Assembly (NCBI RefSeq): GCF_900230215.1
Contig: NZ_LT907982.1
Span: 1,116,001-1,180,000, forward strand
Direction: 5' to 3'
From: Jatrophihabitans sp. GAS493
GTDB lineage: Bacteria > Actinomycetota > Actinomycetes > Mycobacteriales > Jatrophihabitantaceae
Length of the DNA stretch: 64,000 nucleotides
Part shown: one piece after another, positions 1,936-13,593 of the stretch
Position numbering within the stretch: position 1 is the first letter of the stretch
How the letters are laid out: each line of letters opens with the position of its first letter
Program-made: the position numbers and the translations under genes
The notes under the pieces: generated by a model
What the model was told of the DNA's origin: nothing
What the model saw: the letters and a program-made list of their open reading frames with translations, nothing else
Database searches by the model: none

Positions 1936-3246
1936 TCAGCCGCGCAGTCCGGCCAGCAGTGCCGGCAGCGTCACGCCGGCTCGGCCCTGCTCGACCATCG
2001 ACCCCGACATGTACATGACGCCGGTGAGTCCGTCCGCCTTCGCGCGCTTTACGGCGAGGGAGAGGGCGAGCGGACCGCCGCCGCCAGTATTCTCGCCGGC
2101 GACTGGGAGGGCGTACTGCTTGGCCAGTGAGGCCAGGTAGTCGATCGGGGGGACTTGCGCGGCGGTGCTGCCCTGGGCGGGAGCGTCTAGCCACGTGCAG
2201 TAGACCGTGCCGTTGATGTGTGCTGCGGAGATGGCCGCCACCTGCGCCGGCCAGTCGAGACCGGAGCTGATCATGCCGTTGATCTCGGCGTTAGTTGAAC
2301 CGCGATTGCCGGCGGTGATCGCGGCCTCAGTCATCCCCGGCCGCAGTCCCCACGATGGAAACAGGATCTCCTGGTTCAACGAGCCGAAGGCGGCCGCTAC
2401 TGTCTTCATCAACCAGGTTTCGTACCCGGTCAGGCTGTCGTAGTAGAACTTCAACGAGGCCCGCGCCTGGGTCGCCGACGTGACGCCGGTGCCGACCGTC
2501 GGCCGCCAATTGGGGTACGGCGACTGGGCTAGGGCGGTGGCGTCGTAGTCCCAGAGCAGATTCGAGTGTCCGTTGTAGGTGGCCGGCGGGTAGCGAAGCT
2601 CGCCCGACAGCAGCCCGCCCACTCGAACCGTCGCGAAGTTCTTCGGCCCCAGCGCGGCAGCCACGTGGGCGATGTACTGCTGCTGGGCTGATCGCACCTG
2701 CTGATTGAAGACGGCATTTGGCACGTCCTGTGAGAGTGGGCCGTGCCACGCGTCGCCGTACTGATCGACGAATCGGGTCGCGCCCGGCAAGTCGAAGACC
2801 CACGACGGAGGGTATTGCAGACCCAGATCGAGCACGATGTGATAGCCCGCGTTTCGCAGGACAGTCAGCCGGGCGACCACCAACCCGATCTCGTAGCTGC
2901 TGAAGACACCCGGCTTCGGTTCGATGCTGTCCCAGCCCAGCCCTAGGGTCATCCGGGTCACTTGGCCATGGGCGAGGGTTGCTATCTGGTCGGTGGTCGG
3001 AGCGATGAGTCCGAACCACGGCGCCGTGGGGGTGATCGCAGGTTTGGCCGCCGGCGTTGGGGTCGGCGACGAAGTAGCTGCGACAGCGATAGTGGCGACT
3101 GCTGGAGTGGCGACGGGAGAGACAGAAGCCGGGGAGGCGAGTGCTGAGGCGGCGCCGCGCTCGGATCCGACTCCGAGGGCCAGGATTCCGAGAACCAGCC
3201 CGGCACGACGAAGCAGGTCAGCACGTCCGCGCAACCGGGGATCCAT
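1936..3246 (-). CDS. Secreted TIM-barrel glycoside hydrolase (GH14/GH42-like)
   Basis: A 436-residue exported protein: an N-terminal hydrophobic segment (LLRRAGLVLGILALGVGS) followed by an Ala/Thr/Pro-rich linker to about residue 75. The body looks like a clan GH-A-type barrel: LGWDSIEPKPGVFSSYEI near the first strands is the usual 'W..iEp.pG.yd' pattern. VGGLLSGELRYPP resembles the beta-amylase (GH14) signature carrying the acid/base Glu, and PVAGENTGGG near the C-terminus could hold the second catalytic Glu. The gene is the last of the leftward polysaccharide operon, so trimming or degrading an exported alpha- or beta-glucan is plausible. Substrate and exact GH family are inference. Confidence 0.7.
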   Translation of the reverse strand: MDPRLRGRADLLRRAGLVLGILALGVGSERGAASALASPASVSPVATPAVATIAVAATSSPTPTPAAKPAITPTAPWFGLIAPTTDQIATLAHGQVTRMTLGLGWDSIEPKPGVFSSYEIGLVVARLTVLRNAGYHIVLDLGLQYPPSWVFDLPGATRFVDQYGDAWHGPLSQDVPNAVFNQQVRSAQQQYIAHVAAALGPKNFATVRVGGLLSGELRYPPATYNGHSNLLWDYDATALAQSPYPNWRPTVGTGVTSATQARASLKFYYDSLTGYETWLMKTVAAAFGSLNQEILFPSWGLRPGMTEAAITAGNRGSTNAEINGMISSGLDWPAQVAAISAAHINGTVYCTWLDAPAQGSTAAQVPPIDYLASLAKQYALPVAGENTGGGGPLALSLAVKRAKADGLTGVMYMSGSMVEQGRAGVTLPALLAGLRG

Positions 3247-3357: not shown

Positions 3358-5895
3358 CTACCGAGCGCCGCGTGATGCCTCCAGCGCATTGAAATATGCT
3401 CGTTCCTGGTCCAACGCGATCGAGTCCCAGTCAAACTGACGGGCAAAGATCCGACCCTGTTCACCCATCGCAGCAACCCGTTCGGTGTCCGAGTAGAGGG
3501 ACAGCAACTCGGCGGCGAAGCGGCTGACCTCGAAGGCGGGCACGAGAACGCCGCAGTCGTCAGGGATGACGGCGCGTAGACAGGGAATGTCAAAGGCGAT
3601 CACCGGTGTGCCGCTAGCCAGCGCCTCCACGGCGACGATCCCGAACGTTTCGAATCGCGACGGCATCGCCACTACCCGGGCCTCGCCCAGCAGTCGATGC
3701 TTGACCTCCCCGTCGACCCGACCGACGAAGACGACCCGATCCCTGATTTGCAGGGAATCGACCAACGTATGTAGGCGCTCCTGGTCTGGGCCGACCCCAG
3801 CGATCAGCAGTCGACCTCGAAGCTGCGGGGCCACCTGGGCGTAGGCCTGCAGAAGCAGATCGATGCCCTTCTGAGCGGTCTCCAGACGCCCCATGAACAG
3901 CACATCCTCGCCGGTCTGGAAGTCGTAATCGAAGATGTCGCGGTCGACACCATTCGCGATCACGTCGACGTGCGCCTTCGGTCGAGAGTCGAGAATCTTC
4001 GCTCGCATGTCCTCCGAAACCGTGACGAACCGGTTGTAACAGCGCAGCCCGAGCCACTCGAAGATGAAGAACGGTAACTTGTACTGCCTCGACTTCTCTT
4101 TGGCGTTTAGCCACTGCACCAAGGCGAGCGTCGGCCGCTGGGTCCAGAGCGGCATGAGGATGCTCGACAGCGGGGCAGCGAACTCTTCGACTACGAGATC
4201 GGCCTGGTATTTGCGGGCCGCGAACGGGAGCACGGCAAAGTAGCTCATCAGGCTGGGGAAGTATCCGATTGGAAGTCCGATCGGCACGTAGCGCACACCG
4301 TCTTCGACGCGCTCGGTCGCGCCGTTGTAGTTCGTCGTCAGCACCGTTATCGCGTGCCGGTCGGCCAGGCGTCGATTGACCTCTCGATTGCGCAGTGACC
4401 CGCCGCCACTGCCCTCTCGTCGATGATCCTCGAAGCCGAGGTGAAGAATCCGCATGGCGTTACCTTGGTCAGTCGGGCTTCCGTCGGGACGGGGCGAGCG
4501 AGCTGGCGCGTCCGGGGCGACAGCGATTGATTTCCTGAAGAACACGCGATAAGTCTGCACTGCGAGCAGCACCGTGCTCAGCCCCACCCATAGCAGCGGG
4601 CTCGTCCGGCTGATGCTTAGCGCAGCCACCACAGCAGCGCCGAAGATCCAGAAGGAACCGAGCGGGAGAAGCGAGACCCGCCACCGGCGCCGACAGTCGA
4701 TAAGCAGCAGCAGAACGCTGGATGCAGCGCCGATCATTGCGCCGCTGGCGATGCCGGTGAGTCCGGCCCAGTGCCAGCCGAGCGGCACCGCGACCAGCGA
4801 GACAACCAGTCCGAGCGACTGGCGCAGCAGCGCTGGCCGGTAGACGGCGCGAGCCTGGTAGAAAGTTGAGACCAACTCGATGAGTCCAATGAGGAAGCCG
4901 GATGCGGCCGTGTAGGGCAGCACATCCGCGACCCGGTCAAATCCCGCTGGGAAGAGAAGCGAGATTACGGACAGCGGCAAGGTGGCGACCACGCACGCGA
5001 AGGGCACTGCGATGCGAAGGTAGAGCTGCACCGAGACGTCCAGCAGGGCACCCTCGCGCAGTTGTCGCTTGGCGATCAGCGGGAACGCGACTATCGCGAT
5101 CGCACCGCCCAGAAATAAGGGGATCCGAGAGAGGATCATGCTGGCCTGGTAGCTGGCGGCTTCGGACGGAGAGGTCGCCAACACCGCGACCAGGACGACG
5201 TCGACCGAGGCCAACACCGATACGAGGCCCTGAATCGAGGCGACGCCGAAGATGTCACGCCAGACGGCGAGCCCGGTGACTGACCAGGATCGGAACAGCG
5301 GTCCGATGTCGGAGCGCATCAATACGAAGCCGGTGACGACGATCGCGGCCGACCCGAGTCCGAAGCCGCCGAGCGCGCCGGCCGCCCCAGCCCCGAGGCC
5401 GATGAGAGAGAGCCCTGAAGCTATCTTGACCGCGGGCTCGAGAACCTTGGTGGAGGCGAGCAATCCGAACCTCTGAGTGCCCTGAAGCCAGCCGCCGGCG
5501 GTGGAGGCGACGAAGATCGAAAAGGCGCTGATGGCCAGTACCAGCGAACTGGTCGAATCGGCGAACGATTGACCGATGACGTAGAGGATGAAGCCGGCCA
5601 CCGTGCCCTGGACGGTGTTGATCAGCAGTGCGAACTTGACGATTCGCTGACGTCCGGTCCGATCGAGCGTCGTCGATGCCAGCTGCTTAGCCAGAATCCA
5701 GGGGATGGAGGAGACGGCGACGGTTCCCGCCGTGAGTAGCAGGGCCTGGCCGGCGGCAAAGATCGCGTACTCCTCGGGTGCGAGAAGTCGGGTCAGGGCG
5801 AATGAGTACGCGTAGTTGATGACACCAACGACGAAGGTCGAAAGGGTGAGCCAGCGCGCGCCGACGGCCAGCGCTGAAGGTGCTTCAGATGCCAT
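3358..5895 (-). CDS. Wzx/MATE-type flippase fused to a GT4 glycosyltransferase
   Basis: An 845-residue single frame. Residues 1 to about 460 are a polytopic transporter of the polysaccharide flippase superfamily (ALAVGARWLTLSTFVVGVI; many hydrophobic helices), expected to flip undecaprenyl-linked glycans. From about residue 481 (MRILHLGFEDHRREGSGGGS) begins a complete GT-B glycosyltransferase of family 4, with VDVIANGVDRDIF, FMGRLETAQKGIDLLL and the donor-site region PSRFETFGIVAVEALASGTPVIAFD. No stop separates the halves, but an AAGG stands a few bases before the internal ATG at about 4455, so a separate GT could also be initiated there. It starts one base after the upstream gene's stop. The linkage of flipping and sugar addition in one chain is the oddity. 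Confidence 0.9.
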   Translation of the reverse strand: MASEAPSALAVGARWLTLSTFVVGVINYAYSFALTRLLAPEEYAIFAAGQALLLTAGTVAVSSIPWILAKQLASTTLDRTGRQRIVKFALLINTVQGTVAGFILYVIGQSFADSTSSLVLAISAFSIFVASTAGGWLQGTQRFGLLASTKVLEPAVKIASGLSLIGLGAGAAGALGGFGLGSAAIVVTGFVLMRSDIGPLFRSWSVTGLAVWRDIFGVASIQGLVSVLASVDVVLVAVLATSPSEAASYQASMILSRIPLFLGGAIAIVAFPLIAKRQLREGALLDVSVQLYLRIAVPFACVVATLPLSVISLLFPAGFDRVADVLPYTAASGFLIGLIELVSTFYQARAVYRPALLRQSLGLVVSLVAVPLGWHWAGLTGIASGAMIGAASSVLLLLIDCRRRWRVSLLPLGSFWIFGAAVVAALSISRTSPLLWVGLSTVLLAVQTYRVFFRKSIAVAPDAPARSPRPDGSPTDQGNAMRILHLGFEDHRREGSGGGSLRNREVNRRLADRHAITVLTTNYNGATERVEDGVRYVPIGLPIGYFPSLMSYFAVLPFAARKYQADLVVEEFAAPLSSILMPLWTQRPTLALVQWLNAKEKSRQYKLPFFIFEWLGLRCYNRFVTVSEDMRAKILDSRPKAHVDVIANGVDRDIFDYDFQTGEDVLFMGRLETAQKGIDLLLQAYAQVAPQLRGRLLIAGVGPDQERLHTLVDSLQIRDRVVFVGRVDGEVKHRLLGEARVVAMPSRFETFGIVAVEALASGTPVIAFDIPCLRAVIPDDCGVLVPAFEVSRFAAELLSLYSDTERVAAMGEQGRIFARQFDWDSIALDQERAYFNALEASRGAR

Positions 5896-5896
5896 C

Positions 5897-7489
5897 TCAG
5901 TGAGATCCGGCTGTCAAGGCTCGGACGTCGAAGAGGATGAGATCTCCATCGCTGCGCGAGTGGGCGACGAAGACCGGATCCGCGTTCGCCTGCAGATACC
6001 GGAGGAATTCCGGGCTCCCCTCTCCGTATCCCTGCCGGACGAGCTCGGTGTTGAGCAGGATGTAGTCGGCGTGATTCTGCTTCAACGCCTCGGCGGTCGA
6101 CCACCTACCGATGACTACGTCCTTGAGCAGGAATTGAGCCGAGAACTCGGTGACCGATACTCGACTCCCAGCGGCAACGTGCGTCGGCTCCCACCGGAAG
6201 AACTGCGCGTAGAGGTTGTTGTCGCTGCGGTGAATGCGAGACCAGGCGGCGGAGTCGAAGAGGAGCAGCACAAGCAGGATCGCGCTCCAGAGCGTCCGCG
6301 CAACCCTGTCCAGTCGGTCCTGCCGGAGGCGGTGAACAACCGCGGCGATCGCCAGCACGCAGGGAACCAGCGTTATGTAGTACATCTGTTCTTCGAGCGA
6401 CCCGATGGCCATCGCGTAGGTGAGGTATCCGCAGGCGGCCACGGTCCAGACACAGACCAGCGACCGCACTGCTTCGCGGGGCGTTGTCGGCTCGCTGCGC
6501 TCCCACAGACGCTGTCGCCGAATGAGCATCAGCGCGCTGACTCCGCCTGCGAAAAGCAGGAGATACGTGCCGGCCAGGTCGCCGAGATTGGCCAGTAGTC
6601 GATCAGCGAGGGAGACGTGCGTGGTCGCGGCGTTGAATCCGGTCGTCTGCTGAGTACCGACCAGGCGCGATATGCCGCTGGTGTGTGCCGTCCACCACGG
6701 GGCGAAACCCGTGGTGAGCCAGACCGTCAATGTCGACGTGGCGTAGATCGCCGACCCGATACCGAGAACGGTCAGCGGGTTGCGCCGCGGCCCGGCGGCT
6801 CGGCAGAGGGCAGCTAGGCCCAGGGTCGCCGCGAGGACCAGACCGAACGTCTCCTTACTGCAGAACGCGGCGCCGCAACTCACCCCGGTGAGCAGGGTGA
6901 GGATGGTGCGTAGACGGTTGGAGCCGTCGCGCGGCCGACCGAAGGTGGTGGCGAGAAGGGCGAGGAGAAGCACGGTGAGACAGACGAAGAACTGAGCCTC
7001 AGCCTCCAGCATTACTCGACTGTCAAAAGAGATCTGGAATGGGTCAAGGGCGATGACTGCCGCTACGCCCAGCGGGAGTGCCCGTGAATCAGTAAGGCGC
7101 CTGGCCAGCAGATAGCTGAGCACCACCGTCAATGATCCGAAGACGACAGGCACCGGGCGTAGCGCGAAGATGACGTCTTGGGGGTGGCCGTGAAGCCCGA
7201 AGAGACGCACAACAGCACCGAGCGTCAGGAAGACCATCGGAGGGTGCAGGTCGAAGGGGGCTCCGTATGATGTCAACCCATGGCCGGATGCAAGATTCGT
7301 CGCGATCTCGGAGTAAGTGACCTCGTCTATGAACATGTTGTAGGCGGATTTCAGGTGCAGCAGCCGGATCGTCAGGGCTAGTAGGAAGATCGGCACGCCC
7401 CAGACGATTGGCGCCGGTGAACGGCGTGGTGCTGGGGGCAGCGTGGCTGAGACGCTGTGCTTGCTGCGGGCTGGTCGGAGGTCAGTCAC
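5897..7489 (-). CDS. GT-C membrane glycosyltransferase (PMT/ArnT-like)
   Basis: A 530-residue polytopic membrane protein. After a Pro/Arg-rich start the first membrane helix (IVWGVPIFLLALTIRLL) leads to a short outer loop with MFIDEVTYSEIA. The acidic DE pair is typical of GT-C enzymes (GT39/GT83 families) that use polyprenyl-phosphate sugars on the outer face. FDLHPPMVFLTLGAVVRLFG matches the conserved 'hPPl' loop of the same superfamily. About ten further helices follow, then an extracellular C-terminal domain. Its start overlaps the end of the upstream GT4 gene by eight bases (7482-7489). The acceptor is unknown; a glycan repeat or a Thr/Ser-rich exported protein are both possible. Confidence 0.85.
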   Translation of the reverse strand: MTDLRPARSKHSVSATLPPAPRRSPAPIVWGVPIFLLALTIRLLHLKSAYNMFIDEVTYSEIATNLASGHGLTSYGAPFDLHPPMVFLTLGAVVRLFGLHGHPQDVIFALRPVPVVFGSLTVVLSYLLARRLTDSRALPLGVAAVIALDPFQISFDSRVMLEAEAQFFVCLTVLLLALLATTFGRPRDGSNRLRTILTLLTGVSCGAAFCSKETFGLVLAATLGLAALCRAAGPRRNPLTVLGIGSAIYATSTLTVWLTTGFAPWWTAHTSGISRLVGTQQTTGFNAATTHVSLADRLLANLGDLAGTYLLLFAGGVSALMLIRRQRLWERSEPTTPREAVRSLVCVWTVAACGYLTYAMAIGSLEEQMYYITLVPCVLAIAAVVHRLRQDRLDRVARTLWSAILLVLLLFDSAAWSRIHRSDNNLYAQFFRWEPTHVAAGSRVSVTEFSAQFLLKDVVIGRWSTAEALKQNHADYILLNTELVRQGYGEGSPEFLRYLQANADPVFVAHSRSDGDLILFDVRALTAGSH

Positions 7490-8948
7490 GGTCGGTGGAG
7501 GCTGCTTCCACTACGCCATTGATACCTGCCGTGCCGTTGCGTGTCTCCATGAAGTCTGGGCCTCGAGCAACTCGGATCGAGATCTCCGGTCGGTCGTCAC
7601 TGGAAGGGAGGCCGATCCGGGCGAGAATGGACGGGACGCTCAGCGTGTCGGCCCCGGCCAGGAAGAGCGAGATCCCTGACGCATCGTTGGCCACCCGGTC
7701 CTCGTGGCGCAGCGTCGGTGACCAATTGACCGGCACGTACTCCTGTGGAACGTGGACTACCACGCCGAGGTCACTCCAGGTTCGTCGATCTTGGCGGGCG
7801 AGTTCGAGCCGCGCGTCCTCGGCGAGCAACGCGTGATCGATTTTCTCACCCATCTGCGCCCAGGTGAAGTTGGCGGCCCATGCCCGGCACGAGACCTGCA
7901 TGTCTCGCTCCGTTGTCTCGTTCTGCAGTTCGTTCAGGGCGTTCTCCGCGGCTGCGGCCAACGGGCTTCCCTCCGGCGCCAGCCATCCGGTGACGCCGTC
8001 CCGGATCGAATCCCGCAGACCCGGGCGGTCAAAGGCCAGTACCGGTGTGCCGAAGGCGTTGGCCTCGATGACCGACAGTCCCCAGCCCTCGCCGGAGGAG
8101 GCGTTGATGCAGAGCCACGAAGCGGCCAGAAGCTCGTCTCGGGAACGGTTCGAACACTGCGAATGGAACGTGACCGAGCTCCCGACCCCGAGACGCTTGA
8201 CGATGTCCCGAAGCGCGTCCAGCTCCGGTCCGGAGCCGACGATGTTCAGCTTTAGCTGCGGGTATTGGCGCAGCAGCCCGGGCATTGCCTCAATGACGAG
8301 GTTAGTCCGCTTATGCGGAACGAGGCGCCCGACGGTGACGATCGACGGGTGCTCGGTCCGCTGCACCACGGCGGCGAGCGCCCCCGCTGGACGTGAGCCC
8401 GGCGGCACCACACGCATCTCACCCTTTAGTGCGAGCTGCTGACGAGCCAGGTGCCGGGTTGACGGCGATACCGTGATGATCGAACGCCGGCGGTACACCA
8501 GCCGAGATCCCGTCGACTCCAACCAACGGCCGAAGGTGGCCATCGGGGCTGGAAAATACTGCCCGAACTGCTCCTGGTGAACGTGATGCAGGAGCAGCAG
8601 GATCGGTGTGCGGCGGGGCAACGCAAGTGGAGTGAAGAATGGAATGCCGTTCTGTGAGTCGATCACGGCGGAGACCCGGCGACGATTTCGCACCAGCCAC
8701 AGCAGCGCGGCGGCATAGACGGTGAACTGCCCGCCTGACCGGCGGATGGTGTAGCCGTTGACTACTTCGGTCCTGCGCTGCCCGTCGACATGCGCGGCCA
8801 GAAGCAGCACGTCCTCGCCCTGCTCCGCGAAGTGCGCCGCCAACTCCTCGCACACCACCTCGGCGCCGCCGGCTTGTGGATGCTTCAAGTCGCGCCAGTT
8901 CGTGATGACCAGAACCCCGGGCCGGCGGCTGCGCAGGACCACCGGCAT
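7482..8948 (-). CDS. GT4 glycosyltransferase with degenerate GGDEF-like C-terminal tail
   Basis: A 488-residue protein. Residues 10 to about 385 are a GT-B family 4 transferase: VLVITNWRDLKHPQAGGAEVV (acceptor-side Gly loop), VGRLVPHKRTNLVIEAM, and SSGEGWGLSVIEANAFGTPVLAFD with the EX7E donor motif. The final ~90 residues are extra. LRHEDRVANDASGISLFLAG and ADTLSVPSILARIG align by eye with the 'D.vaR.GGDEF.vlLpg.d...a..la.Ri' core of a diguanylate cyclase domain, with the GGDEF residues lost. If correct, the tail would be catalytically dead and possibly a c-di-GMP or protein-interaction module. It is the second gene of the leftward operon, 15 bases after the GT2 gene. Confidence 0.88.
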   Translation of the reverse strand: MPVVLRSRRPGVLVITNWRDLKHPQAGGAEVVCEELAAHFAEQGEDVLLLAAHVDGQRRTEVVNGYTIRRSGGQFTVYAAALLWLVRNRRRVSAVIDSQNGIPFFTPLALPRRTPILLLLHHVHQEQFGQYFPAPMATFGRWLESTGSRLVYRRRSIITVSPSTRHLARQQLALKGEMRVVPPGSRPAGALAAVVQRTEHPSIVTVGRLVPHKRTNLVIEAMPGLLRQYPQLKLNIVGSGPELDALRDIVKRLGVGSSVTFHSQCSNRSRDELLAASWLCINASSGEGWGLSVIEANAFGTPVLAFDRPGLRDSIRDGVTGWLAPEGSPLAAAAENALNELQNETTERDMQVSCRAWAANFTWAQMGEKIDHALLAEDARLELARQDRRTWSDLGVVVHVPQEYVPVNWSPTLRHEDRVANDASGISLFLAGADTLSVPSILARIGLPSSDDRPEISIRVARGPDFMETRNGTAGINGVVEAASTDRD

Positions 8949-8963
8949 CAGGCGGCCTCGAGG

Positions 8964-9824
8964 TCAGGAGCGCGCATAGTCGCCTGATTTCTTGAGTAGC
9001 CGGCGGACCGAGAAGACGTCCTGAAAGGCGCGCACGCCGTCGGAGACCACGTTGAAGGTGGAACCTTCGTCATTCGACCAGTGAATCGGAAGCTCGTGAA
9101 CATCGGCATCGCGGCGGAGGAGGCGAGCGATCAGCTCGACATCGAAGGCGAAGCCGGCCATCTGCATCTCGGCAAAGACGGCGCGTGCAGTTTCTCCGCG
9201 CATGAGCTTGAAGCCGCACTGGGTGTCGGTGATGCCGCCGACGAGGGACGCTGAGGCTCGGTTGAAAGCACGGCTTCCCAGTCGGCGCATCAGAGGCTGG
9301 GAGACCTCATAGCTGGCCCCGGCGCAGCGCCGCGATCCGATCACCACCTCGACCCCGGCGTCGAGACGGGCCAGCGCATCGCTGATTGACGAGGGAGGGG
9401 TGGAGAGGTCGGCGTCGCAATACCCTACGAACCGTGCGGTGCTTTTGAGCACGCCAGCCCGGACGGCGGCGCCCTTGCCGCGCGTGCGGCAACTGATGAC
9501 GCGAACCGGTGTCGCAATCCGGAGCTGGTCGAGGGCAGCGGCGGTGGCGTCGACGCATCCGTTGTCGACGACGGTGATGCGCGCGGAGTAGCCGCATGTC
9601 TCCAATACGCGGGATATAGCGGAGACGGTTGCCCCAATTCTCTGGGCTTCGTTCAGAGCCGGAATGATGAGATCGAGATCATAGGTTCGGTGCATATGAA
9701 CCACGGAAGTCGATACGTTTGCTGCCGGTGGTCGCACCAGCGTCTCCGGCTTGAGCGGCAAGAGCGAGAGTTCAACGCCGTTCGTGTGAAGAAGTGATCT
9801 TTCGTCCAGAAGCACTTTGGGCAT
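8964..9824 (-). CDS. GT2 glycosyltransferase, dolichyl-phosphate mannosyltransferase-like
   Basis: A 286-residue GT-A fold enzyme. After a ~45-residue N-terminal extension comes DLDLIIPALNEAQRIG, then ITVVDNGCVDATAA, GKGAAVRAGV and the metal-binding YCDADLSTPP (DAD; DxD-like). TDTQCGFKLMRG and FAFDVELIARLLR are hallmark blocks of DPM1/polyprenyl-phosphate glycosyltransferases. No C-terminal membrane helices are present, so the product would be a soluble or peripheral enzyme making a polyprenyl-phosphate sugar, which would suit the GT-C enzyme two genes downstream. It is the first gene of the leftward operon; a GGGGGA Shine-Dalgarno lies ahead of the ATG at 9824. Confidence 0.9.
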   Translation of the reverse strand: MPKVLLDERSLLHTNGVELSLLPLKPETLVRPPAANVSTSVVHMHRTYDLDLIIPALNEAQRIGATVSAISRVLETCGYSARITVVDNGCVDATAAALDQLRIATPVRVISCRTRGKGAAVRAGVLKSTARFVGYCDADLSTPPSSISDALARLDAGVEVVIGSRRCAGASYEVSQPLMRRLGSRAFNRASASLVGGITDTQCGFKLMRGETARAVFAEMQMAGFAFDVELIARLLRRDADVHELPIHWSNDEGSTFNVVSDGVRAFQDVFSVRRLLKKSGDYARS

Positions 9825-10329
9825 AACGAAACAATCCCCCTAGCTAGTTCGCGCAATGCACTACCGCAATACCCCTGATTACTTCGAGTAGTGGTTACCC
9901 CGTCGCGATCCAGCCGAAGAATACACATATGCAATGACGTCAAATCCCTTCCGAATGTTTCTTCCGATGCACGCCTCCGAAATCCATTTTTGTCCAATTT
10001 GCGAGTATTTGAGCGGATCTGGCGCTCGCTTTTCATGAACATCGGATCGCTCGAAATGAAGAATGGGTTCACTAGTTGGAAACGGCATGTTTCACGGCAA
10101 TTTTCGGGTGGATCCAGGGTATCTGTTGGTTACCTACTGGACATATTGTGATGATGGGCTCATTTTCCCGACCGCGGTGCTTGGTGGTTTCCCTGGTCAC
10201 CACTTGTCCATTTCGACTGCTACGCTCGCCTCCGTATCCAGGCTTCGGAGGGTCGAGACCTATCGTGAATAGTTCGCATGTAAGGCGTTTGTCCTGCATC
10301 GCCTACGTGCTGGGACGTTCGGCACTGAG
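9825..10329. promoter_or_regulatory. AT-rich divergent intergenic region between two polysaccharide operons
   Basis: About 505 bases without a convincing gene, clearly poorer in G+C than its flanks. It must contain the promoters of the leftward GT2-GT4-GT-C operon and the rightward PIG-L-GT4-pyruvyl transferase operon. An inverted repeat GAAAC-N5-GTTTC lies at 10079-10093 and could be an operator. I could not settle on a -10/-35 pair. Short open frames here have no recognisable protein features. Confidence 0.5.
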
Positions 10330-11178
10330 TTGAGCACAAGAGGCAATGCGGGCGAGTTGCTCGACGTCATCAGTGCGTTCGGGGGGTGCGGTGACGGGCC
10401 TGTCACGACGCGAGGTCGGCTGCGGGGTGCGAAATTGATCGTCGCCTCTCCGCATCTAGATGATGCATTCCTTTCCTGCGCGGCGTTGCTGCAAGATATC
10501 CGTCGCATGGTTTCAGTATCCGTGGTCACATTGTTTACCGAGGGTGGCAATTTGGTGACCCTTTCTGGTCGGCAATTCGTCAGGCAGTGCGGATACTCCG
10601 ACGTGGACGGTCTCTACCGCGATAGGCGGGCTGAGGATCTCGTGGCGGCGGGGATGCTCGGCGTCGACGCTGAGCACTTGAGCTTCGTCGAGGCTCTCTA
10701 TCGACCGAAGCCCGAGGCCCGAGGCCGTGTGCTCCGACGTATGTCGGCCGCCTTTCCGGAGTCTGCCGCGATCTATCCGACTTATCGATGGCACGCCTCC
10801 AAGGGGACGATTGCCCAATCGGACCTGTCGACTCTGAAGTCGGCGTCAACGGCTCTCGGGCGGTACAACACCTCGGAGAACGTCGTGGCGCTCTGCCCGC
10901 TGGGCATTGGTGATCACGTAGATCATGTGCTGACCCGTACTGCGGTTGAGGCAGTGTTCCAACCCGAGCAGATCATCTACTACGCCGACCAGCCGTACGC
11001 CCTGCACTGGCCGACCTCAAGGTGGCGCTATCCGGATGGTTCACGGGAGCCTGTCGAATACCGGGGCGATCAGATACGGAAGGCGAGCATCCTGCGCACC
11101 TACGCCACGCAGGTCGACGCTCTCTTTCCGGAGGGCATGCCGGAACTGTCCGAGTTCTACTACGCCTACCGGCGATGA
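10330..11178 (+). CDS. PIG-L/LmbE family zinc deacetylase
   Basis: A 282-residue protein of the GlcNAc-PI de-N-acetylase superfamily, which removes acetyl groups from N-acetyl sugars with a zinc ion. LIVASPHLDDAFLSCAALL near residue 37 is the metal-binding SPHxDDAxLS motif, and LCPLGIGDHVDHVLTRTAVE supplies the distal HxxH ligand. Here it heads an operon with a GT4 (17-base gap) and a pyruvyl transferase, so deacetylation of a nascent exopolysaccharide or its lipid-linked precursor is likely. The TTG at 10330 is the only plausible start I found in frame; the first ~30 residues are poorly conserved by eye, so the start is uncertain. Confidence 0.85.
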   Translation: MSTRGNAGELLDVISAFGGCGDGPVTTRGRLRGAKLIVASPHLDDAFLSCAALLQDIRRMVSVSVVTLFTEGGNLVTLSGRQFVRQCGYSDVDGLYRDRRAEDLVAAGMLGVDAEHLSFVEALYRPKPEARGRVLRRMSAAFPESAAIYPTYRWHASKGTIAQSDLSTLKSASTALGRYNTSENVVALCPLGIGDHVDHVLTRTAVEAVFQPEQIIYYADQPYALHWPTSRWRYPDGSREPVEYRGDQIRKASILRTYATQVDALFPEGMPELSEFYYAYRR

Positions 11179-11194
11179 CGCTCCGGCGACGGAC

Positions 11195-12388
11195 ATGAGG
11201 ATCGGACCCCGGCGGGGGCCGCGAACCCGTCCTCGGATTATCCTCTCGATCTTCGATCACGAACAGAATCCGTACTACGCTGGCGGCGGCCCAGCCGTAG
11301 TCAAGCGGATAGCCGCTGAGCTTACGCCGCAATACGAGGTGATCGTGGTGACGGCGGGGAGCCGGCGCACCGAATTCCGAGAGGGCATCTGCTACCGATT
11401 TCTGCCCGTTCTCTGGGGTGGGCCGAGAGGCGGTCAGCTTCTTTGGGCCCTCGTGCTGCCACTGGTTGCGGTCTTCTGCGACTTCGATCTCTGGGTCGAG
11501 AGCTTCACGCCGCCCGTCTCCTCCAACTGCCTACCTCTGGTGACCCGCAAACCTGTCCTGGGTGTCGCGCAGGCGCTGTCAGCTCGAGCCATGGCTAAGC
11601 GCTACGGCACCAAGCTGCCCGTCCTGCTGGAGCGGCGCCTCTTGTCGACATATCGAGACATTGTGGTGCTGAACGAATTCGACCAAGCCGAAGTGCGTAC
11701 GTCGACGCCCAAGACCGCCGTTCATCTCATTCGCAACTCGGTCGCCGTTCCGGAATCGCTTCCTTCGCGCAACTCGGCAACGCAGCCGTATGGGCTCTTT
11801 CTTGGGCGTATCGAGATATATCAGAAGGGGATCGACCTGCTGCTCGCCGCGCATCGTGAAGCTGGCGCAGCAGCGCTGCCGTTGGTCATCGCTGGATCTG
11901 GCGCGTCTTCGGAGAACCGCACGCTAGAGCGACTCATCGCCCAGGCACCCACCGACGTCCGTTGGGTGGGTCGGGTCGCCGGCGCCGAGAAGGATTCTCT
12001 GGTTCGGGGTGCGGCCTACCTTGTCGTCACATCGCGTGAAGAGAGCTTCTGTCTGGCCGCACTGGAGGCGATGTCCTTCGCGGTCCCGGTCATCCACTTC
12101 GATCTTCCACAGCTCTCCTGGATTCCGGACGAGTGCGGTGTCCGTGTCCGCTGCTTCGACATACCGGCGCTGGCCGGGTCGCTCCGTGACCTGTCGGCGA
12201 ATACGGAGGCTCGTGAGCGGTTGGGAAGCAACGCTCGTGATTTTGCCGTCGAGACGAGTCGCACCAATCAGGGTGCGTATCGGCGGTTAGTGGAAGAACT
12301 ACTTGGCGCGGAGCGCGTCCGGGCAATCCGGCCTGGAGCAGACCCAATCCGTCCCAGAAAAATGACCGACCCGGAAAGGGAATTTTGA
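11195..12388 (+). CDS. GT4 glycosyltransferase
   Basis: A 397-residue GT-B family 4 enzyme. The frame is open further upstream inside the deacetylase gene, but the ATG at 11195 (MRIGPRRGPRTRP) follows the upstream stop by 16 bases and gives a normal N-terminus. IILSIFDHEQNPYYAGGGPAV carries the acceptor-side Gly-rich loop, LFLGRIEIYQKGIDLLLAAH the linker to the donor domain, and VTSREESFCLAALEAMSFAVPVIHFD the EX7E donor-binding motif. It overlaps the pyruvyl transferase start (TGATG), so the two are translationally coupled. Confidence 0.9.
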   Translation: MRIGPRRGPRTRPRIILSIFDHEQNPYYAGGGPAVVKRIAAELTPQYEVIVVTAGSRRTEFREGICYRFLPVLWGGPRGGQLLWALVLPLVAVFCDFDLWVESFTPPVSSNCLPLVTRKPVLGVAQALSARAMAKRYGTKLPVLLERRLLSTYRDIVVLNEFDQAEVRTSTPKTAVHLIRNSVAVPESLPSRNSATQPYGLFLGRIEIYQKGIDLLLAAHREAGAAALPLVIAGSGASSENRTLERLIAQAPTDVRWVGRVAGAEKDSLVRGAAYLVVTSREESFCLAALEAMSFAVPVIHFDLPQLSWIPDECGVRVRCFDIPALAGSLRDLSANTEARERLGSNARDFAVETSRTNQGAYRRLVEELLGAERVRAIRPGADPIRPRKMTDPEREF

Positions 12389-13593
12389 TGAGTGGCAATA
12401 GTCGATCGGTGAAGCAGGGCCTCTTGCGACGGCGTAAGCGGCCCGCGCCGGAGGTGGGCGGCTTTGCCGATCTGGGGTCGCAGCTGAACTACGTACTCGG
12501 TATTGACACCGGCCGACGCGCCAAGAGCCTCGCGATTGTCGGCAACTATGGCAATGGCAACACCGGCGATGAAGCGATTCTGGCCGGTATCGCCGAGCTG
12601 CTTCCGACCGGGACCCGCTTGCGGGTGCTGGCGAAGGATGCGAGCCTCGTCCCGCCGATCGAACTGGCGGATGGCGCCGTCGTGGTGAATCGTCAATCGA
12701 AGCAGGGCATCAAGGCCCTGCTCGGCTCTGACGTCGTCGCCATCGGCGGAGGTGGAATGTTCGGCTCCGGAATGCCTCGCCTCTTGCACGCATTGCCGGT
12801 GGTCGGTCTTCTGCTCAGCTACGCCGGGCGCGACGTGATCTTCGTCGTGATCGGAGCCTACCCCGACATGCCCGGGACCAGTGCGCGTCTCCTGCAGTCG
12901 CTGGTGTCACGCTCGCCCGCGGTGACCGTGCGGGACCCGATCACGGCTGAATTCCTGCAGCGTAGAGATGCTCGCCGTAGAAACGGGCTGAGCGTCGTGG
13001 CCGATCCAGCGGTCGCCCTCTCGCCGGCAACGCCTGAAGCTATCGCGCGCGAACTAGGCGACGACTGGCAGGTCGACCGCCTGCGGTTGGTGGTCTCCCT
13101 GAAGCCGTCGCCGCGGCCCAGTGACAATGAGGCTCAGGTCGTCTGGGCAGCGGAGGTGATCCGGGAGTGGACATCGCGGCCTGGTGCCACCGCCTGCCTT
13201 CTGTCACTCTCGTCCCAGGGGGATTTCGGCCTCGGGGATTCGGTCACCGACGCCACGCTGGCGGGGCAGGTGCGGCAGCTCTGCGGCCTCGACTCGGAGA
13301 TCCGCTTAGTCGGCCCGAACCTGTCACCTCGGGTCGCGAAGGGTGTCATCGCATCCTCCGGGGGCGTGGTCGGGGCGCGGCTCCACGCTCTGATCTTCGC
13401 CCATGCCGTGGACGTCCCAGCGTTTGGCATCATCTTCGAGGTCAAGACACGTCAGTACGCCTCCGAGATCGACGCCGAGTTCTGCGAACTGCCTCACCCT
13501 GACTTCGCTGGCATCAGCGAATGGCTCGACCAGGTGTATCGCGCCGGCTCATTGTCGTGGGAGGTACGCGCCGAGGAGATCGCCGGCGGCTAG
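12388..13593 (+). CDS. Polysaccharide pyruvyl transferase family protein (CsaB/WcaK-like)
   Basis: A 401-residue GT-B-like enzyme expected to ketal-link pyruvate from PEP to a sugar, adding negative charge to an exported polysaccharide. IVGNYGNGNTGDEAILAGI is the N-terminal family block, VVAIGGGGMFGSG the second, and VVGARLHALIFAHAVDVPAFGI the C-terminal 'R.H..i.a' block. I chose ATG 12388 over the adjoining TTG at 12385 because GGAAAGGG sits at the right distance. Its stop shares a CTAG with the stop of the opposing EtfD gene, so the two converge with no spacer. A second family member is at 58805. Confidence 0.88.
   Translation: MSGNSRSVKQGLLRRRKRPAPEVGGFADLGSQLNYVLGIDTGRRAKSLAIVGNYGNGNTGDEAILAGIAELLPTGTRLRVLAKDASLVPPIELADGAVVVNRQSKQGIKALLGSDVVAIGGGGMFGSGMPRLLHALPVVGLLLSYAGRDVIFVVIGAYPDMPGTSARLLQSLVSRSPAVTVRDPITAEFLQRRDARRRNGLSVVADPAVALSPATPEAIARELGDDWQVDRLRLVVSLKPSPRPSDNEAQVVWAAEVIREWTSRPGATACLLSLSSQGDFGLGDSVTDATLAGQVRQLCGLDSEIRLVGPNLSPRVAKGVIASSGGVVGARLHALIFAHAVDVPAFGIIFEVKTRQYASEIDAEFCELPHPDFAGISEWLDQVYRAGSLSWEVRAEEIAGG

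Follow-up and report, generated by a model that had tools for sequence, protein, structure and literature searches.

The window analysed here is the whole stretch of 64,000 nucleotides taken from contig NZ_LT907982.1 of Jatrophihabitans sp. GAS493 (positions 1,116,001 to 1,180,000), in which a gene located at 7482-8948 of the complementary strand encodes a family 4 glycosyltransferase (GT4) of 488 residues (P0001). Very probably, the C-terminal tail of this enzyme consists of a degenerate GGDEF domain of minimal size (residues ~393-470), and the explanation moderately favoured here is that this tail binds cyclic di-GMP (c-di-GMP) and switches glycan synthesis on when c-di-GMP is high. The most telling feature of the tail is an RxxD motif in register, R414-H-E-D417, positioned five residues ahead of the place of GGDEF and absent from the description given in an earlier note on this DNA. 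That note, made from the sequence alone, had proposed a degenerate GGDEF domain with dead catalysis at the end of the GT4; the tail is indeed present, in frame, at the C-terminal end of the gene, and both descent and catalytic loss are supported by the analyses described below.

Conservation of the tail and its relation to GGDEF domains

A scan of named genomes returned 27 relatives of the GT4, of which 19 are tailed (one of them, L020, in a shortened form) and 8 untailed, all Nocardioidaceae. Subsequent searches covered 61 near genomes at E<=1e-60, yielding 3 further tailed and 8 further untailed proteins, and 298 genomes belonging to the order (E<=1e-70), yielding 18 further tailed ones. The totals, window protein included, are 41 tailed and 16 untailed proteins, a ratio that carries no meaning as the E-value cut-offs favour tailed proteins. 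The named families possessing the tail are Microbacteriaceae, Micrococcaceae, Pseudonocardiaceae, Streptomycetaceae and Treboniaceae, and the protein of a congener (L036) is 74 % identical to the window GT4 over its full length. In a tree restricted to the transferase part, tailed and untailed proteins are separated by one branch (98/93; midpoint root), so that a single gain or a single loss suffices. Two genomes of one family contain two tailed GT4s each (L079 and L094 in G592, L080 and L095 in G484); the paired genes lie on separate contigs, one tail being of the RxGD type and the other of the RxTD type. The tail of Paenarthrobacter nicotinovorans SSBW5 (L020:7036-7245) ends just past its RPTDEV motif and forms an incomplete domain.

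Three tail profiles were used, namely A1 (19 tails), A3 (15 tails) and A4 (31 of the 41 tails). Aligned by hhalign to 20 GGDEF domains of the own genome, A1 reached a probability of 80.5 with a score of 36.3 and A4 a probability of 90.6 % with a score of 42.2; the best of 200 column shuffles of A4 scored 17.7 and the reversed profile 11.5. The same A4 profile gave 0.3 % (score 10.9) with 14 of 26 matching ACT domains and 21.7 % (score 24.8) with 18 of 23 matches to GGDEF_2, the others being below the cut-off or on canonical GGDEF domains, while GGDEF_2 and GGDEF score 23.6 against each other. With the narrower A3 profile, the probabilities were 75.6 % for GGDEF and 0.4 % for GGDEF_2. ACT and GGDEF_2 were rejected as alternative sources of the tail, both scoring below GGDEF in hhalign. 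The part aligned by sequence spans 39-41 columns, from the RxxD motif through the beta hairpin into the following helix; strands 1 and 4 of the tail are matched by the models only.

When 396 genomes of the phylum were searched with A1, the own gene was found together with 10 other places among the matches listed (E 2.6e-4 to 9e-3), for which no more than 11 candidates per genome had been scored. Judged by eye from their reading frames, 7 of these 10 non-glycosyltransferase matches are GGDEF proteins (L049 with a decayed signature) and L048 is GGDEF-like; L051 and L056 are not GGDEF. The L048 match (L048:1093-1758, 222 residues, A1 E 2.6e-4) displays a decayed GGDEF-like domain with an RxxD motif (RERD) at the matching place. 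An hmmsearch of A1 against 177,635 PDB sequences produced a sole match at E<=10, the GGDEF entry 5euh, with a whole-sequence E of 0.0013. Membership of the GGDEF superfamily by descent is apparent at the profile level and invisible to single-sequence Pfam searches; the last 104 residues of the window protein gave no Pfam match at E<=5 and, in NCBIfam, only a chance match (E 0.15). By its occurrence in 41 proteins and its profile match beyond the shuffles, the GGDEF-like tail seen in the note is more than a chance resemblance.

I-site residues and loss of catalysis

The c-di-GMP I-site motif RxxD is described as lying five residues before GG(D/E)EF (PMC5567048), and a further I-site arginine has been reported as R390 in PleD (PMC7288161) and as R402/R395 in PelD (PMC7112168, PMC8461298). 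In the window tail, R414-H-E-D417 (7698-7709; this and all following features of the gene are on the complementary strand) is found at the published spacing. R444 (7617-7619), aligned by hhalign with the arginine in the 'aeR' stretch of the GGDEF helix, is in register with the further arginine, a register obtained from alignment with GGDEF domains and not with PelD itself. The RxxD motif is in register in 19/19 tails of A1, 15/15 of A3, 27/31 of A4 and 37/41 of all tails, the 10 tails outside A4 (L012, L016, L018, L020, L021, L023, L024, L027, L082 and L085) having been read by eye. Of the 27 A4 tails with RxxD, 24 have R or K at the third position (exceptions L009, L017 and L087), compared with 1 of the 4 tails lacking the motif. 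These four RxxD-less tails (L088-L091) belong to one genus and one clade (100/100), with P..R in place of RxxD. Among the 20 GGDEF domains of the own genome, RxxD is present in 10; the third arginine accompanies it in 9 of them and is also seen in 2 of the 10 domains without RxxD. Apart from the clade of L088-L091, most of the aligned tails retain the I-site triad as a whole.

The site of the lost GG(D/E)EF motif is now A423-S-G-I-S427 (7668-7682) according to the hhalign register. The earlier note was right in stating that GGDEF had been replaced; the replacement it had given, DASGI, is one residue off the profile register, which yields ASGI(S). The order of sequence elements it had claimed for the tail is likewise correct, with spacings of x3 and x6 instead of the x5 and x8 it had indicated (D-R-VA-NDA-SG-I-SLFLAGAD-TLSVPS-ILARI). 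The SIRVARG string it had pointed out corresponds to residues 457-463 and includes strand b4 (residues 457-462, 7563-7580; model E97-102).

None of the 31 A4 tails carries the GGDEF signature at its place; L091 contains a GGDEL string near its end, elsewhere than the signature position. No P-loop/alpha-1 segment is present in either of the two tail models presented below. Lacking the signature in sequence and the P-loop/alpha-1 segment in its model, the window protein does not qualify as an active diguanylate cyclase. It does possess the RxxD spacing and third arginine of an RxxD-type degenerate-GGDEF receptor, as represented by PelD, BcsE and PopA, and is, on these residues, a putative receptor. 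As to the ligand, for which c-di-GMP and GTP had both been suggested, c-di-GMP appears likelier than GTP because the R-D-R triad is kept, whereas the predicted domain has neither a P-loop/alpha-1 segment nor a GGDEF signature.

Predicted fold and competing explanations

Tail models were obtained with AlphaFold2 for the window protein (predicted local distance difference test, pLDDT, 79.8) and for L014 (pLDDT 81.5). Both consist of a helix, strand b1, a b2-b3 hairpin, a helix, strand b4 and a final helix, i.e. a GGDEF core without alpha-1 and P-loop, which can be written b-(short)-b-b-a-b-a. In the window protein, a long helix (residues 363-387, 7788-7862; helix 3-27 of the modelled construct) links the transferase to the degenerate domain proper (residues 393-470, 7539-7772, b1-b2-b3-a-b4-a), delimited from the profile relation, the models and the structure matches. 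The C-terminal end (residues 471-488, 7485-7538) is predicted with low confidence, the pLDDT of the final two blocks being 59 and 38. The GGDEF* domains of BcsE and PelD are reported to be likewise devoid of P-loop and alpha-1, with a diverged GGDEF motif, an intact I-site and bound c-di-GMP (PMC7439463). In the VIA comparison of the window tail, the best row is the GGDEF* domain of BcsE (6tj0; Z 5.7, root-mean-square deviation (rmsd) 3.5, 86 residues aligned), seven of the nine uppermost rows are BcsE chains (Z 5.2-5.7, rmsd 3.4-3.6, with 84-88 residues aligned), and PelD ranks 12 and 13 (Z 5.0). With Foldseek, 17 of the 50 rows listed for the window tail are GGDEF-type (one BcsE), none reaching E 0.001, and BcsE is found for the L014 tail at ranks 2, 7, 9, 10, 13, 14 and 16 (probability 0.93-0.98, E>=0.025). 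The earlier note had called for structure prediction of the tail, an unrelated fold being the outcome that would speak against its proposal; no unrelated fold was obtained, and the predicted one is a common ferredoxin-like fold. The models are thus compatible with a cyclase core and do not by themselves single out GGDEF.

A number of observations weigh against a GGDEF-derived c-di-GMP receptor. The structural matches are all weak (Foldseek E>=0.022, Z<8) and tied with unrelated ferredoxin-like folds: YebC-type, PII and other folds lie within 1 Z of BcsE in the VIA comparison of the window tail, and the best 50 VIA rows for L014 contain DosC at rank 19 as the single GGDEF entry and lack BcsE altogether. 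Structure comparison was for this reason rejected as sole proof, being insufficient to establish the GGDEF identity of the tail. At the sequence level, the 5euh match adds up two stretches, the better having an i-Evalue of 1.9, and drops to E 0.071 with a wider profile. None of 31 single tails matched GGDEF, BcsE or PelD in Pfam (max_evalue 10). A search of 8 hand-picked genomes, some of them GGDEF-rich, with A4 returned 15 non-self matches at E<=1, distributed as 4 GGDEF, 1 GGDEF_2 and 10 neither (L114, counted among the latter, being unread), and SecA was the top non-self match in two congeneric genomes (E 0.001). The hhalign match to residues 349-523 of E. coli BcsE is not significant (probability 1.3), with a register that is nonetheless correct, R415-D418 of BcsE falling on the RxxD of the tail. 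As a bare string, RxxD is frequent in these proteins and has weight only in its column and register. Finally, the genomes of the four RxxD-less tails encode 13-17 GGDEF proteins; the persistence of these tails indicates that the tail can be retained without an I-site.

Several other explanations were considered. According to the main rival, which we consider rather unlikely, the GGDEF remnant is only a structural or docking module, devoted to dimerisation or to contact with the flippase, PMT or GT2 proteins, and its I-site residues serve folding or contact. The four tails that keep the domain without RxxD are in agreement with such a role, as is the conservation of D393, D434, G432, A461 and the M467 column (mostly L), which is about that of R414 and D417 and which the I-site does not explain; the GGDEF* domain of BcsE is moreover reported to bind BcsQ via a surface other than the I-site (PMC7439463). 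Opposed to it are the match of the RxxD spacing and register to a functional I-site and the behaviour of the triad, whose residues mostly disappear together in one clade and are retained together elsewhere. A ferredoxin-like domain with no relation to GGDEF, for instance ACT- or PII-like and binding a metabolite for feedback control, appears improbable. The fold class is common, the top Foldseek row for L014, above the BcsE chains, is a phosphoglycerate dehydrogenase, an enzyme with an ACT domain, and the VIA list of L014 is headed by AsnC-type, PII-like and other folds, so that ACT/AsnC, PII and YebC-type folds blur the picture. The wide gap between ACT and GGDEF in the A4 hhalign comparison, in which profiles of ACT and not of PII were used, and the predominance of GGDEF among the weak A1 sequence matches nevertheless argue against it.

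Very little credence can be given to a tail derived from the GGDEF_2 domain of PucR/CdaR-type regulators, whose in-register RxxD would have arisen independently: a weak match to a GGDEF_2 protein (L112) and the 21.7 % hhalign probability are outweighed by the higher score of canonical GGDEF and by the A3 profile, which matches GGDEF and not GGDEF_2. It is equally hard to credit a weakly constrained, essentially functionless extension, as might be suggested by the shortened tail of L020 and the highly variable tail ends, given that 41 proteins from at least five named families possess the tail, with D393, R414, D417 and D434 nearly invariant.

Gene setting, proposed function and known systems

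The 488-residue protein matches PF13439 at residues 27-184 and PF00534 at residues 198-343. Its catalytic part (residues 13-360, 7869-8912) is delimited by these Pfam matches and by the untailed homologues, which terminate shortly past residue 360. Read from the sequence, the EX7E motif of the transferase (E287...E295, 8064-8090) is intact; together with the Glycos_transf_1 and Glyco_transf_4 domains, it identifies the protein as a GT4. A GT2 glycosyltransferase (8964-9824, complementary strand, PF00535) is encoded directly upstream, an arrangement also encountered in L010 and L025. On the other side lie a PMT-like membrane glycosyltransferase (5897-7489, complementary strand, PF02366 and PF13231), the listed start of which overlaps the GT4 stop, and a flippase fused in frame to a second GT4 (3358-5895, complementary strand, PF01943 and PF00534). 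The forward strand encodes a PIG-L deacetylase (10330-11178, PF02585), a third GT4 (open reading frame listed as 10946-12388 and scanned from 11054, PF00534) and a polysaccharide pyruvyl transferase (12385-13593, PF04230). At the end of the cluster, a 436-residue protein (1936-3246, complementary strand) has no Pfam match at E<=0.001 and may, by eye, resemble an exported glycosidase-type barrel. The Paenarthrobacter locus L010 contains, besides the tailed GT4 and GT2, a flippase (Pfam score just below the cut-off), a GT4, PIG-L and PMT; flippase and GT4 form one fused open reading frame in the window and separate genes in L010. In the other loci scanned, GT2 and PMT were found in L025, a flippase in L014 and a GT4 in a long open reading frame in L011; the latter (7365-9887) is of comparable length to the fused one of the window, and its GT4 half alone reaches E<=1e-3. 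The single protein scanned in L035 gave no Pfam match. From the flippase, GT2 and PMT setting, the cluster probably yields a polysaccharide, displayed on the surface or secreted, that is assembled with the help of a flippase.

The own genome encodes 20 GGDEF proteins, and such proteins are present in all 18 other RxxD-tail genomes examined. Including the four genomes without RxxD, GGDEF proteins occur in 23/23 tail-bearing genomes examined versus 12/16 genomes of untailed relatives (Fisher p 0.022), the genome of L020 and the remaining tail-bearing genomes of the 298-genome search standing outside this count. Their presence can count for little, given the relatedness of the genomes and the coverage of only part of the tail-bearing ones.

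The mechanism proposed can be summarized as follows. The function remaining to the tail would be the binding of c-di-GMP at the I-site formed by R414, D417 and R444, within a presumably soluble GT4 acting in a surface or secreted polysaccharide pathway. At high concentration, c-di-GMP, probably as the usual intercalated dimer, would link one tail to another or to a further arginine. The bound ligand would then alter the assembly of the GT4 (dimerisation) or its recruitment to the membrane and thereby turn glycan synthesis on. We infer c-di-GMP binding, the direction of the effect and the recruitment or dimerisation step by analogy, and activation in preference to inhibition is a guess based on PelD and BcsE.

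PelD of Pseudomonas aeruginosa and Bacillus cereus is among the closest known systems: it is described as a degenerate GGDEF protein with RxxD and a further arginine (R367/D370/R402 and R363/D366/R395, respectively; PMC8461298, PMC7112168), serving a polysaccharide pathway with the soluble GT4 PelF, which it recruits to the membrane with PelE and PelG (PMC8461298). For the B. cereus PelD, a c-di-GMP Kd of 103 nM is reported (PMC7112168). PelD is, however, reported to stand alone as a protein and to comprise a GAF domain and four predicted membrane helices (PMC8461298), whereas in the window the domain belongs to the GT4 polypeptide, in which Pfam finds no GAF. Most likely, the window protein unites a c-di-GMP receptor with a GT4 and is a one-protein counterpart of PelD-PelF. 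The GGDEF* domain (GIL) of E. coli BcsE shares the missing P-loop/alpha-1, the diverged signature and the I-site (R415-TG-D418), within what is described as a separate, BcsQ-binding regulator with N-terminal and REC* domains (PMC7439463). The whole window protein has no Pfam PelD match at E<=5, and by sequence it falls outside both the BcsE (GIL) and PelD families. BcsA and Alg44 also place a c-di-GMP receptor domain within or beside a glycosyltransferase, described in their case as PilZ on a GT2 membrane synthase or partner and not as a GGDEF-derived domain on a GT4. The C-terminus of the Sinorhizobium glycosyltransferase BgsA is reported to bind c-di-GMP without a predictable c-di-GMP domain; BgsA is however cellulose-synthase-like, and the Asp of its hypothetical RXXD is said to tolerate substitution and to be seemingly conserved only in sinorhizobia. 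GGDEF_2 domains of PucR/CdaR-type regulators are GGDEF-related and present in both genomes searched, with a lower profile score to the tail and RxxD strings in 8/18 domains, counted regardless of I-site register. Streptomyces CslA-GlxA is presented as a cellulose synthase, not a GT4 (PMC11022532), and the reviews consulted describe c-di-GMP control of polysaccharide synthesis via PilZ domains, synthase subunits or separate degenerate-GGDEF proteins. Among the papers listed by full-text literature searches of open-licence papers, none describes a GT4 that ends in a degenerate GGDEF domain.

On a broader scale, our confidence is evenly divided as to whether the tailed proteins constitute an actinobacterial subfamily of soluble GT4s with their own c-di-GMP receptor, originating from one ancient GGDEF fusion stripped down to the I-site and providing a direct post-translational input to flippase-type polysaccharide assembly that Pfam does not see. 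The RxxD-less genus (L088-L091) offers a natural negative control. The finding also suggests that stripped GGDEF domains have been overlooked in other enzymes, as was remarked for the B. cereus PelD (PMC7112168). If the tail binds c-di-GMP, the receptor would reside within a GT4 of a flippase-linked cluster and the principle would extend to another assembly route; it would connect c-di-GMP with surface polysaccharide by a short, testable route in actinobacteria such as Arthrobacter/Paenarthrobacter.

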